Shown: piece by piece, positions 4,189 to 44,966 of the stretch
Layout: every line of letters starts with the position of its first letter
How positions within the stretch are numbered: position 1 is the stretch's first letter
Assembly: GCA_031291395.1 (NCBI GenBank)
Contig: JARLJD010000113.1
Location: 1 to 46,703, forward strand
DNA length: 46,703 nt
DNA from: Alphaproteobacteria bacterium
GTDB lineage: Bacteria > Pseudomonadota > Alphaproteobacteria > UBA9219
Direction of reading: 5' to 3'
Made by a program: the position numbers and the translations under genes
Notes under the pieces: model-generated
The model's input: the letters and a program-made list of their open reading frames with translations, nothing else
Databases searched by the model: none
Told to the model about the DNA's origin: nothing

Positions 4189-4438
4189 GAAAACCGAAAA
4201 AAGAGAGATCGTCATTCCGGAAAATTTTGCGCCCTGACCAACTTTGCGGAGTAAAAACTGGCCTTGGAGGCGCAAAATTTATCCGGAATCCCATTTGTTT
4301 GCTTAGAAAAAGAAAGAAACCAAATGGGATTCCGGATAAATTTTATTGCGCGCTGGAAACTTTTGGCATGACTCGGCACCGTTCGTGCGGGCGCGAAATA
4401 AAATTTTCCGGAATGACGATCTCTTTTTTTCGGTTTTC
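4189..4438. repeat. composite palindrome (CGTCATTCCGG family), possible bidirectional terminator
   Basis: The outer arms GAAAACCGAAAAAAGAGAG... and ...CTCTTTTTTTCGGTTTTC pair almost perfectly over about 31 bases and include GATCGTCATTCCGG/CCGGAATGACGATC. Each half is itself an inverted repeat, and a central CCCATTTG/CAAATGGG hairpin lies between. The inner part is the same family as 10653-10815. It fills the gap between convergent dcd and adk, so transcripts from either side would fold it. Confidence 0.85.
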
Positions 4439-9314: not shown

Positions 9315-10847
9315 TCACTGCCTTACCATATCCCTTATCTGCGTCGGCGTCATGCCTTCCGGTTCGCCGACATAGGCGATCGTCATTTTATCGGGCGAGA
9401 ACCAGCGGTCGAGGACTTGGGTGATGTCTTGAGCCGTCACGTTGCGGATGATTTCGCTGTAACGGTCGAGATAATCGCGGCCGAGATTGTGCCTTTGCAT
9501 ATAAACCAAAGTCGCGGCGATTTTGTCGGTCGAGGTCAGGGACAAAGGCTGCGATCCCGTCAGGTAATCCTTGGCCGCCGCGATTTCCCGCACGGTCGGG
9601 CCTTCGTCGTGGAAACGGCGCATCGTATCGCGGATCGTGTCCAAAGCTTCGCCCACCTTCGGGTTATCGACGTCGGATTCGCCGATGATCAGGCCGTCAT
9701 GTTGCGCGGGGGCAAGCTCGGTCGAAATGCCATAGGTCAGCCCCTTCTTGTCGCGCACGTCCTGCATCAGGCGCGAGGAAAAGCCGCCGCCGCCCAGGAT
9801 ATAATTGGCAATCTGCGCGGCGTAATAATCGGGGTCGTCGCGTTTGGGGCCGGGCATCGCGAAGAGCATTTCGGTTTGCGTGCCCTCGCGCCGCACGAGG
9901 ATCGAGGGCGTGTCCGTCATTTCATCGACATCGGCGATGGGCGTCAGTTGCGCTTTGGCGGGCAGGTCGGCGAATATTTTATCAAGCGCCGTGGCCAGTT
10001 CCGCGGGCGTCATATCGCCCGCGACGGCCACGGTGACGTTGTCCAATGCCAGATGATGCGCGGCGAAATCCTGTATGTCCGCGCGCGTGATCGCCTTTAA
10101 CGTCTGCATCGTGCCCAAATGGCGCTGGCTGTAAGGATGCCCTGCGAAAATTTGCGAGAACAGGGCGTAACGCGCTTGCCAATCGGGGTCGGAGAATTGC
10201 TGGCGCATCGCGGCGAGTTGCTGCCCGCGCAGGCGTTCAATGTCGTTGGCATCAAAGCGCGGCTTCGTCAAAGCCAGATGCAAAAGCTTGAAGGCTTCGG
10301 CTTTATCCGCGCTGAGGCACTTGATGCCGCCGACGAGTTCGTCTCTTCCGTCGCTGAAGGCGAGCGTGATCGACTTGTCGGCCAGTTGCCGCTGAAACGC
10401 CGCGGAATCATACGACCCCGCGCCTTCCGTCAGCGCGTTCATCGTCAGGTGTGCCAGCCCCTGCTTGTCGGCGGGGTCTTGCTCGCTGCCGCCCTGAAAA
10501 GCAAAACGCATCGCGACGATTGGCAATTTATGGTCTTCCACCAGCCACGCTTTGACTCCGGTTTCGGGGGCGGTGACTTCGGTGATTGTGACGGCGCGGG
10601 CGGGGGAGGAGATCAGGGCGCATACCAAAATTAAAGCAACAACCCAACCACCGTCATTCCGGAAAAATCGCTTTTTTGCTCTTTCTTGCAAAAAAGCGAT
10701 TTTATCCGGAATCCCATTTGTTACTCTTGCTGCAGACAAAGAAACCAAATGGGATTCCGGATAAAATCGCATTTTTTGCAAGAAAGAGCAAAAAAAGCGA
10801 TTTTTCCGGAATGACGAAGAATGGATTTGTTTTAGCAGCTTGAACAT
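9315..10847 (-). CDS. M16 family peptidase-like protein, non-catalytic partner, with a palindrome-encoded N-terminal insert
   Basis: M16B peptidases of this kind work as heterodimers in the periplasm. In this 510-residue subunit the zinc motif HxxEH is replaced by HLTMN (133-137), and it keeps the conserved Arg/Tyr region of the non-catalytic partner (near MQRHNLGRDYLDRYS). The start MFKLLKQ has AAGGA eight bases upstream and lies ten bases after the EamA stop. A signal-peptide hydrophobic core (GWVVALILVCALISSPARA, about 67-85) is separated from the start by about 54 residues encoded wholly by the palindrome 10653-10815. No in-frame start lies between the insert and the hydrophobic core; the only internal ATG is inside the repeat. 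Confidence 0.9.
   Translation of the reverse strand: MFKLLKQIHSSSFRKNRFFCSFLQKMRFYPESHLVSLSAARVTNGIPDKIAFLQERAKKRFFRNDGGWVVALILVCALISSPARAVTITEVTAPETGVKAWLVEDHKLPIVAMRFAFQGGSEQDPADKQGLAHLTMNALTEGAGSYDSAAFQRQLADKSITLAFSDGRDELVGGIKCLSADKAEAFKLLHLALTKPRFDANDIERLRGQQLAAMRQQFSDPDWQARYALFSQIFAGHPYSQRHLGTMQTLKAITRADIQDFAAHHLALDNVTVAVAGDMTPAELATALDKIFADLPAKAQLTPIADVDEMTDTPSILVRREGTQTEMLFAMPGPKRDDPDYYAAQIANYILGGGGFSSRLMQDVRDKKGLTYGISTELAPAQHDGLIIGESDVDNPKVGEALDTIRDTMRRFHDEGPTVREIAAAKDYLTGSQPLSLTSTDKIAATLVYMQRHNLGRDYLDRYSEIIRNVTAQDITQVLDRWFSPDKMTIAYVGEPEGMTPTQIRDMVRQ
10653..10815. repeat. composite palindrome (CGTCATTCCGG family) inside an M16 reading frame
   Basis: The outer arms GTCATTCCGGAAAAATCGC and GCGATTTTTCCGGAATGAC are perfect inverted repeats. 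Each half folds on itself (GCGATTTT...ATCCGGAAT), and a centre CCCATTTG/CAAATGGG completes a three-hairpin figure. I count 163 bases, or 165 when the matching C and G outside the arms are included, a multiple of three. It shares both outer and inner segments with 4189-4438. Confidence 0.9.
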
Positions 10848-10856
10848 GCGTTTTCC

Positions 10857-11288
10857 TTATCCCCAATCCCGTATCGCAACGAAAACACCCAGACCGACGA
10901 TGACAAGCCCAGCCAGATATTGCGGCTTGAAAGGTTCGCGGAGAAGAAAATAGGCGAGAATACCGCCGACGATTGGGGCAATAAGCTCCATCAATTGATA
11001 ATGCGTAACGGGAATTTTCGCTATCACATAACAATAGAGAGCATAGCTAATGAAGTTAATGATGCCAAAAATCAACAACCCACCCCATGTGGCCGTTGAC
11101 AATCTTGCCAGAGAAAAACCCTTTTCGTAAAAGATGGACGACGCAAACGCAAACGACGAGACAATCAACGCCGTCATGCCGACAAAAGCAAAAGAGGGAA
11201 TAGCTGACAAAAGCTTTTTCGCGATAGGGGAAAGCGCTCCATAACAAGCAACCGTGAGAAGCCCCGTCAAATAAATCCCTATATTCAT
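10857..11288 (-). CDS. EamA/DMT-family small membrane transporter
   Basis: The 143-residue protein is one EamA unit with about four or five transmembrane segments, starting MNIGIYLTGLLTVACYGALSPIAKKLL and ending with the typical GGILAYFLLREPFKPQYLAGLVIVGLGV. Full DMT transporters have two such units, so this one probably acts as a dimer. Substrate unknown. Its start overlaps the stop of the catalytic M16 gene by four bases (ATGA) and it is followed ten bases later by the second M16 gene, so it sits inside the peptidase operon and splits the pair. Confidence 0.85.
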   Translation of the reverse strand: MNIGIYLTGLLTVACYGALSPIAKKLLSAIPSFAFVGMTALIVSSFAFASSIFYEKGFSLARLSTATWGGLLIFGIINFISYALYCYVIAKIPVTHYQLMELIAPIVGGILAYFLLREPFKPQYLAGLVIVGLGVFVAIRDWG

Positions 11289-12814
11289 CTTATCCCCGTT
11301 TCATGCCCGATCAGCGGTTGGGCGGCTTCGCGGCTTGCGGGAGTAGCATGCGGGTCGGGGAGCAGCGCGCCCATCAGCTGGCGCGGCGTTCCCGCTAGGT
11401 CGCGCAAGGCGACGTTGACTTGATCGACGGTCACGGCGTTGATGTGGTCGGGCCATGCTTCGACATCTGCAACGCGGTGTCCCGTGGTCAGCGCCATGCC
11501 GAAGGCATAGCCAGGCATCATCAGCCCTTCGCGCGCGAAAATCGCCGAACGTTGCAGGCGGCGTTTGGCGTCTTCGACCGTCTGCGCCTCAAGCCCTTTT
11601 TTCGCGCTGTCGGCCAGAACTTTATGCATGGCTTTTTCCAGCTTTTTATACGTCACGCCCGGACGCGGCGACGCCGCAAGGGTAAAGCTGGTTTCGCCGC
11701 GCGCGTCGGGGTCGTAACTGGATTCCACGGCGCTGGCTATCCCCTGCCCTGTCACCAGTTTCTGGTATAAAACGCCGACTTCGCCGTCGTCCAAGGCTTC
11801 GGCCAGAACTTCATAGGCGTATGCCTCGCCGTTTTTCTGCGTTGCATAGGAGGGAACGGCAAAACGCCAAACGACCTCCGGCTGCTCGACGCCCACATCC
11901 ATAGAGGTGAATTCATGCGTTTTGGGTTTGGGCGCGGGGCCGAAGACGTGGCGTTTGGCGACTTCGCGTTTGGGTACGCGGCCATAGGTCGCTGCCGCAA
12001 GGCGCATGACGTCTTCGACTTTGACGTCGCCCGATATCACCACCACAGCGTTGTTCGGCGCGTAATGGGTTTCGTAAAATTCCCGCGCATCTTCGGGGGT
12101 AAGCTTTTCGATCTCCCTCTTCCAGCCGATCACGGGACGGCCATAGGGATAATGCGGCATGAATTTGTGATCGAATTTTTCGTAAAAGCGCCCTTCGGGG
12201 CTGTTGTCGGTGCGCTGCTGGCGCTCGTCGAGCACGACATGCAATTCCGGGCCCGCCGTTTCTTCGGTAATGCGCAGATTTTGCATGCGGTCGGCCTCCA
12301 TCTGCATAATCATCGGCAAACGCGAGGCTTCGACGGTTTCGTAATAAGCGGTGTAATCGTAGGAGGTAAAGGCGTTATCCTGCCCACCCTGCCCCGCGAT
12401 CATTTTGCTGAACTCTCCCGCAGGAATGTTGGCGGTGCCGCGAAACATCAGATGTTCGAGATAATGCGCGAGGCCGTTCTTGCCTTTGACTTCGTCCGCC
12501 GCGCCGACTTTGTACCAAACCATTTGGCTGACAACGGGAGCGAGGGGGTTAGGCACCACGACGACCTGTAGGCCGTTCGAGAGCGTGAAATTTGTGGGGT
12601 AGAAGACGGCGGCGTGGGCGGTTAGGGAACAAAAGATGAGAATAAAAGCGGCCGTCTTTCCAGCGAAAGCGGGAATCCATCGCGAGCGATGGCGAGCATA
12701 TAAGTCAAACAGCAGTTCAGACAAACCCGCCGCTGGACTCATATGCCGCGCAGACGCGCGGCGATGGATTCCCGCTTTCGCGGGAATGACGATGTATTTT
12801 ACCCATCCCCTCAT
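11285..12814 (-). CDS. M16 family zinc metallopeptidase, catalytic subunit, with a palindrome-encoded N-terminal insert
   Basis: Periplasmic pitrilysin-type peptidase. The zinc motif HYLEH is at 117-121 and the downstream glutamate region is LHVVLDERQQRTD. I start it at MRGWVKYI (12814), whose ATG shares one base with the stop of the upstream lipoprotein gene (TGATG), implying translational coupling. Residues of about 9-53 (VIPAKAGIH...WIPAFAGKT) are translated from the palindrome 12655-12790; the signal-peptide core AAFILIFCSLTAHA follows directly. No in-frame start codon lies between repeat and core. The total of about 509 residues is longer than the usual 450-460, by roughly the insert. 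Confidence 0.92.
   Translation of the reverse strand: MRGWVKYIVIPAKAGIHRRASARHMSPAAGLSELLFDLYARHRSRWIPAFAGKTAAFILIFCSLTAHAAVFYPTNFTLSNGLQVVVVPNPLAPVVSQMVWYKVGAADEVKGKNGLAHYLEHLMFRGTANIPAGEFSKMIAGQGGQDNAFTSYDYTAYYETVEASRLPMIMQMEADRMQNLRITEETAGPELHVVLDERQQRTDNSPEGRFYEKFDHKFMPHYPYGRPVIGWKREIEKLTPEDAREFYETHYAPNNAVVVISGDVKVEDVMRLAAATYGRVPKREVAKRHVFGPAPKPKTHEFTSMDVGVEQPEVVWRFAVPSYATQKNGEAYAYEVLAEALDDGEVGVLYQKLVTGQGIASAVESSYDPDARGETSFTLAASPRPGVTYKKLEKAMHKVLADSAKKGLEAQTVEDAKRRLQRSAIFAREGLMMPGYAFGMALTTGHRVADVEAWPDHINAVTVDQVNVALRDLAGTPRQLMGALLPDPHATPASREAAQPLIGHETGIR
12655..12790. repeat. composite palindrome (CGTCATTCCCGC family) inside an M16 reading frame
   Basis: The arms are GTCTTTCCAGCGAAAGCGGG (with one or two mismatches) and the canonical CCCGCTTTCGCGGGAATGAC. 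A second pair, AATCCATCGC and GCGATGGATT, lies inside. The length is 136 bases, or 138 when the matching C/G outside is included, again a multiple of three. The translation of this repeat (VIPAKAGIH / WIPAFAG) is a familiar peptide in annotated proteins of genomes carrying it. Confidence 0.9.
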
Positions 12815-18680: not shown

Positions 18681-19999
<1,319 letters not shown>

Positions 20000-20100
20000 C
20001 GGCACCGCTTAGCTTAAAGGCTCCCCTTTTCCTCAATCAAGCGTCTTTAGCCGAAGGAGGGCGCGGCATCAAGTGTTTCGCGCAAGAGGGAAATAAACGT

Positions 20101-44701: not shown

Positions 44702-44740
44702 GCGCAACCTCTGGGCTTTTCGCGCCATAAAGCGGCGCTG

Positions 44741-44940
44741 ATAACCCCTCTCCGCCCGCACTTGCGAGGGGAGAGGGGGGATACAAACATTCGAGCAAAA
44801 GCAAAAGGTGTGGCGGGGTGAGGTGGGTGGTTGAGGACGTAAATACCACCCACCCACCTCACCCCTTTCATTCTACGGCGCATGTTCGACGTTCTGTCCT
44901 TCCCCTCTTCCCCCGCAAAGAGCGGGCGGAGAGGGGTTAT
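44741..44940. repeat. composite CCCTCTCC palindrome between dusB and the NtrC remnant
   Basis: Ends ATAACCCCTCTCCGCCCGC and GCGGGCGGAGAGGGGTTAT are perfect inverted repeats. Inside, GGGGTGAGGTGGGTGG pairs with CCACCCACCTCACCCC. Length 200 bp. Nearly the same element as 19796-19999. It sits exactly where ntrB and the 5' part of ntrC would be. Confidence 0.92.
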
Positions 44941-44966
44941 AAACGACGTTTCTTGTGGTAAAATAT

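Follow-up and report, generated by a model that had tools for sequence, protein, structure and literature searches.

Why should a long palindrome lie inside a signal peptide, in the reading frame of the gene? The question is raised by the gene for a non-catalytic M16 peptidase subunit (M16b) in the window, by which we mean the whole 46,703-nucleotide stretch of DNA analysed. Judging from sequence comparison, we argue that the n-region is quite probably a site where non-autonomous repeats land in frame, are translated, are tolerated, and are then removed after export. These are the features of the locus.

10652-10816, no strand assigned: S-family palindromic element, in which two long-stem CGTC-tagged repeats form a head-to-head dimer, recognised by its self-complementarity and its copies in the genome
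9315-10847, minus strand: M16b, the non-catalytic M16 peptidase subunit, with the element within its signal peptide and the start MFKLLKQIHS (PF05193 9.4e-37, PF00675 1.1e-7, and orthologues)
10848-10859, minus strand: ribosome-binding site of M16b, TAAGGAAAACGC, anti-SD duplex -6.2 kcal/mol; it overlaps the stop of the EamA gene that lies upstream
10593-10646, minus strand: hydrophobic core and cleavage region of the M16b signal peptide, WVVALILVCALISSPARA, mean Kyte-Doolittle value 3.55 over 11 residues
11285-12814, minus strand: M16a, the catalytic M16 subunit, with the HYLEH motif and the start MRGWVKYI; its start codon overlaps the stop of a DUF3035 gene, as in relatives
12653-12791, no strand assigned: K-family element, a head-to-head dimer of the CGTC-1 type of REP, VIPAKAGIH...RWIPAFAGKT, in the n-region of the M16a signal peptide

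The S element is 165 bp long, CGTCATTCCGG...CCGGAATGACG. One unit reads CGTC-ATTCCGG...hairpin...CCGGAAT-CCCATTTG, and the inverse of the same unit follows. Over its whole length the palindrome matches its own reverse complement at 92%, and its predicted folding energy is -111.5 kcal/mol. The M16b frame is stop-free across it and reads MFKLLKQIHS-[55 codons]-GGWVVALILVCALISSPARA. The start ATG is at 10847-10845 with TAAGGAAAACGC directly 5' of it. The anti-SD energy there is -6.2, against a mean of -2.85 at random ATGs. The palindrome between start and core, the good ribosome-binding site and the open frame were all claimed by the initial annotation, and all three hold. It also stated that no in-frame start lies between repeat and core. 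That stretch indeed has no ATG, GTG or TTG in frame, but within the repeat there are in-frame codons that went unmentioned, one ATG and several TTG. A good SD-like site accompanies none of them (0 to -3.5). Rfam models of hairpin-shaped microRNAs and sRNAs gave only sub-threshold matches to the palindrome, and we took these to be chance. A single-domain EamA transporter gene (10857-11288, minus strand) stands between M16a and M16b in this genome. M16b directly follows M16a in G009, G003, G002 and G015. Because the EamA gene precedes M16b only in this genome, the start context of M16b is not comparable with that of relatives.

The repeat was called mobile-looking, and its numbers are far from chance. 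This genome holds 72 matches to the S element, and 172 GTCATTCCNG termini against 5 for a reversed control pattern. About 5 of the S copies are full, the window copy included, and about 7 are half copies; many others are partial matches to the S centre. Three kinds of element, S, K and L, share a CGTC end. K is GTCATTCCCGCGAAAGCGGGAATCC, with the peptide repeat VIPAKAGIH/SFPRKRES/HSRESGNP, and its peptide had no matches in the plasmid collection. L has longer inner parts. An L-type element of 207 bp lies in the window at 4211-4417, with the same ends and larger inner arms. Contigs C42, C53, C81 and C124 start with L-type elements, which suggests that these break the assembly.

The anatomy is that of the CGTC-tagged REPs, which Di Nocera et al. 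(2013, PMC3733652) found to be common in alphaproteobacteria, to lack a dedicated transposase and to have some copies within ORFs. The likeness to their CGTC-1 family lies in the CGTC tag, the ATTCC-type stem, the CCA-like tail and the head-to-head dimers. Here one end carries an unpaired CGTC tag, and the ends of S and K are both CGTC-ATTCC. A short CCA-like tail is present in K (GGGAATCCA) and S (GGAATCCCATTTG). The survey described below has 44 exactly paired termini in head-to-head dimers of the S and K families. K fits CGTC-1 as CGTC-ATTCCCGC-GAAA-GCGGGAAT-CCA, and the K element at 12653-12791, with a stem of 8 and a loop of 4, is within the range of CGTC-1 to -4 (stem 8-9 bp, loop 4-5 nt). 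S is outside that range. Its stem, with one bulge, measures about 25 bp, roughly three times the CGTC-1 length, and its loop is about 8 nt. The initial annotation thought that the family looks different from the Rickettsia precedent. Stems in all four published CGTC families are indeed far shorter, but the tag is shared. A RAYT-mobilised REP of the GTAG kind was rejected, as the tag here is CGTC and no Y1 transposase (PF01797) was found in this genome (G000), a near-complete draft. Several Y1 (RAYT-like) transposase genes are present in the sister genome G009 (L060-L068), against none found in G000. The S element is best read as a REP-like mobile element of the non-autonomous kind, built from a long-stem member of the CGTC-tagged group as a head-to-head dimer.

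The survey of in-gene elements covered one draft genome, with partial looks at a few relatives. Stretches around GTCATTCC[CG][CG] termini gave 133 terminus sets, and 103 were kept as elements after filtering; a few of the 103 match by chance inside genes, and the search pattern passed over termini with mismatches. Coding potential was scored with a home-made hexamer model. Hydrophobic cores just 3' of elements were then sought without requiring an open element. This gave 19 entries, and the element was open in all 19. Two of these have an ATG of their own downstream and one is a spurious antisense frame; with the three set aside 16 cases are left, so every core without its own start had an open element. 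In all 16 a start and a hydrophobic core flank an in-frame element, and nearly all of the cores are those of signal peptides or lipoproteins. Signal peptides were called by hydrophobicity and motif, and the features of a Sec signal peptide, a core and A-x-A or lipobox-like motifs, are present by eye and by hydrophobicity. Protein names come from reading the sequences rather than from family search, M16 excepted. The n-region cases are these.

M16a and M16b of the window: 2 of the 16
L095: lipoprotein, NodT-type efflux
L144: lipoprotein, NodT-type efflux, S element
L112: lipoprotein
L123: LysM/M23 lipoprotein
L167: LptE-like lipoprotein
L170: FlgH-like lipoprotein
L108: thioredoxin-like signal-peptide protein
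L124: SH3-like signal-peptide protein
L129: signal-peptide protein
L134: signal-peptide protein
L138: peptide-binding protein with a signal peptide
L152: M48/BepA-like signal-peptide protein, S element
L140 and L164: PAP2-like membrane proteins

A suggested check was whether other genes carry the repeat in the same place, and the answer is 15 further cases of CGTC-tagged elements in this genome. The site inside a signal peptide had seemed unusual. For this genome that does not stand, as the n-region is the rule among in-gene copies. Those outside n-regions are few: L127, L122, L159 and a few at C-termini. In L127 (1501-1663) an S element is in frame between two hydrophobic segments of a membrane protein that has several spans and a TPR-like end, in the frame that S elements use in signal peptides. 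At L122 (3940) a K-type fragment is in frame within a SufD-like gene (SSFPRKRES). L159 was left out of the n-region cases, its element being internal with mixed repeats, and so was L080, a chance match inside a gene.

Relatives give another line of reasoning. Comparison with an orthologue had been proposed as a check, and in M16b orthologues that lack an element a short n-region leads straight into the core (MKRIFVF-VALIAAL in G003, MKKISLFA-ALLCL in G006). In G001 a K-type repeat occupies the same n-region site of M16b, and a TTG within it could also be the start. In G022, which belongs to another genus, a different repeat, HREARSAVAIH...GLPRSLRSFAMT, occupies this site. Both are other repeats than the one in G000, and we take them as independent insertions. 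The start DNA of M16a and the adjoining DUF3035 stop are conserved in G000, G009, G003 and G002. The element directly follows MRGWVKYI in G000, and an M16a orthologue without it has a short n-region joined to the core (MKKRLSFCAFALIAAI). An FlgH orthologue without the element reads MTKISYKNILLTT-VTLLSLSAC. None of 9 relatives has a K element at the n-region site of FlgH, and the n-region of G005 is longer. The LysM/M23 lipoprotein has an overlapping upstream frame (e.g. IYGRNGAYRM) that marks the same start in most relatives. A K element follows after 11 codons in G000, and a K-type element after 5 codons and in another frame in G001. By sequence the two insertions look independent. For the BepA-like protein, G003 starts at MMSALKKIIWLC and G006 has a different repeat-like stretch (GLDPGLRRDD) before the core. 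G009 has an S element in another signal peptide (L285), in the same frame. In the other genus, the M16 subunits of G022 and G020 (L043, L041) have an HREARSAVAIH / GLPRSLRSLAMT repeat at the N-terminus. The M16a of G020 was dropped as an n-region case since a GTG 3' of the repeat might act as its start.

One can imagine that this pattern has nothing to do with selection, and that elements simply target the 5' ends of genes or some local sequence or structure offered by exported genes. Many elements do lie just 5' of start codons, in front of all kinds of gene. However, a mere bias to 5' ends should strike the genes of soluble proteins at least as often, and soluble-protein genes adjoining elements start beyond the element. 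We count none in frame and at least 25 beyond for soluble proteins, against 16 in frame and about 6 beyond for exported and membrane proteins (16:6 versus 0:25, Fisher 5e-8); the counts were made by eye, and the 25 and the 6 are rough. We consider insertion bias an unlikely explanation.

Another scenario is that the elements are extragenic. Translation would start inside or just after the element, at the ATG of GGAATGAC or ATGGATTCC or at a TTG or GTG, and the open frame upstream would be a coincidence. Di Nocera et al. (PMC3733652) found REPs in ORFs to be more often N-terminal than C-terminal, and they suspect most N-terminal ones of being extragenic, arguing for mis-annotated starts in several species. 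K elements have an ATG near the 3' end in both usable exit frames (e.g. L167 1501-1637), so they could donate start codons, and starts within the element are possible for about half of the K cases. In L124 and L167, TTG and GTG codons 3' of the element would yield plausible short signal peptides. Upstream SD sites are weak or absent in L095 and L129, and the good site of L164 belongs to a start codon that touches the element. Against this, a downstream start has no need of an element that is open from end to end. The K elements in n-regions are open in the required frame in 12 of 12 cases, where the per-frame chance is 0.25 as judged from K copies outside n-regions (about 7e-8). Nor does it need a ribosome-binding site upstream. 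An upstream ATG or GTG with an SD-like site (energy -4 or better, within 20 codons) accompanies 14 of the 16 cases; among 123 open frames belonging to other elements, only 10 have one (p = 3e-11). On average the SD energy at upstream starts is -5.8, compared with -2.85 at random ATGs, while just 1 of 18 ATGs within elements has an SD-like site. For the two window elements, L123, L144 and L152, an ATG is missing both from the end of the element and from the stretch that separates it from the core; at 12653-12791 the K element ends in AAG in place of the usual ATG and so offers no start there. The S elements of L144 and L152 hold no ATG at all, which means that the upstream start is the only good one. 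It must be noted that soluble genes have no such arrangement. Taken together we find it distinctly unlikely that the elements are extragenic.

The repeats are thus probably translated and then removed with the signal peptide, as far as one can tell from the DNA. The claim that the M16b repeat is translated into about 54 n-region residues agrees with the open frame, the upstream SD site, the short n-regions of relatives, the conserved start contexts of sister cases and the 15 parallel cases. Comparison shows the anatomy, the frame and the candidate upstream starts. It also shows that the arrangement recurs in 15 further exported or membrane proteins, and that relatives have empty n-regions.

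Could the insertions be functional instead? A start-proximal mRNA hairpin or a long basic n-region might tune expression or the timing of export and be kept by selection. The M16b hairpin is very stable and begins about 30 nt 3' of the start codon, the same n-regions have been struck repeatedly in different species, and both M16 partner genes bear one element each. On the other hand, the families, frames, sizes and positions vary and most orthologues lack an element, as neutral tolerance predicts. The element peptides are basic (mean +5) and non-hydrophobic in used and unused open frames alike. The mean charge is 5.1 in used frames and 5.0 in unused open ones. Selection on the encoded peptide was rejected on these grounds, and a functional role for the insertions is quite improbable. 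Mis-assembly or gene decay is almost certainly not the answer: the genome is a 222-contig metagenome bin and some contigs end in such repeats, but the frames are open and strongly coding beyond the element, the affected genes include usually needed types (e.g. LptE-like, FlgH-like), and independent bins have the same arrangement.

We therefore return to tolerated in-frame insertion, for which we infer that the repeats are translated, exported with the protein and cleaved off, and that neutrality explains the pattern. A REP-like element would have inserted in the n-region of the M16b signal peptide and would be translated as about 55 extra residues. The precursor would then run from a short n-region through the repeat peptide to the hydrophobic core and the cleavage site. 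Elements presumably insert widely, and the n-region cases would gain 27-55 residues between start and core. Export should still work, because the n-region is cytoplasmic and flexible in length and the element peptide is basic and non-hydrophobic in its open frames. In the extended signal peptide regions of some autotransporters, a long n-region before a normal core is compatible with export. Those regions are conserved and not derived from mobile repeats, whereas the inserts here come from mobile repeats. Signal peptidase would cut off the addition after export, so the mature periplasmic protein would be unchanged. Insertions in mature domains or at the N-termini of soluble proteins would mostly be harmful and lost. 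In-frame insertions in n-regions would survive selection, while most insertions elsewhere in coding sequence would not. Element peptides are basic and free of hydrophobic stretches whether used or not, so they would suit a cytoplasmic n-region even with no selection to that end.

In-frame palindromic repeats have been a Rickettsia curiosity since about 2000, and their N-terminal copies have usually been blamed on wrong start codons. The Rickettsia palindromic elements (RPEs) are spread over many cytosolic enzymes, whereas in our genome almost every in-gene copy falls in a signal-peptide n-region. The elements here resemble RPE-1, -4 and -6, palindromes of 100-150 bp, in being in frame in protein genes. 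Those elements are translated, and here, where every n-region case is in frame and open, translation is probable. The comparison with Rickettsia made in the initial annotation is apt, as our element ends bear the CGTC tag, which marks a REP superfamily to which RPE-4 and RPE-6 also belong (PMC3733652). The S element is likened to these two in kind, by the tag as described in that paper and not by sequence alignment. Some RPE-1 copies are at the N-termini of proteins expressed in vivo, as cited in passages of PMC3733652. That paper gives no link between REPs and signal peptides (the phrase is absent there), while we find an n-region bias. Delihas (2007/2008; PMC2759123, PMC2229807) described MITE-like repeats, RU-1 and RU-2 (ERIC, YPAL), that are fused in ORFs and translated in frame, and that make up a portion of a signal peptide in Yersinia. 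In those fusions the hydrophobic residues come from the repeat, and a new exported protein results. In our genome existing conserved signal peptides are interrupted between n-region and core, many times over. The open-licence literature we searched contained no paper linking palindromic repeats with signal-peptide n-regions. In-frame REPs were already known, so within that literature the bias to n-regions is the new part.

In several genes and species conserved starts on one side and conserved cores on the other have repeats caught between them. This suggests a simple rule, with the n-region as the tolerated site and the signal peptide as a safe harbour for such DNA within genes. Translation of the repeats becomes directly testable. 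Systematic mis-annotation of the start sites of exported proteins in repeat-rich genomes is indicated. The insertions are also natural experiments on the permissible length and basicity of a signal-peptide n-region. A wider claim would be that n-regions are a general in-gene refuge for palindromic repeats across the alphaproteobacteria and that some inserts have been put to use. We find this doubtful, but if it were true the reused inserts would, as long basic n-regions or as hairpins close to the start, govern how fast envelope proteins are made and exported.

Two minor observations concern other repeats. Single 26-bp forms such as GTCATTCCGGCTTTCGCCGGAATGAC occur at L098 1501-1526, L160 2424-2449, L141 1501-1526 and elsewhere. 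Some have inverted flanks ending in T-runs, and these look like two-way terminators. The window also holds another repeat pair, at 19774-20010 and 44730-44962, rich in CCCCTCTCC and GGGAGAGGGG and with direct and inverted copies.
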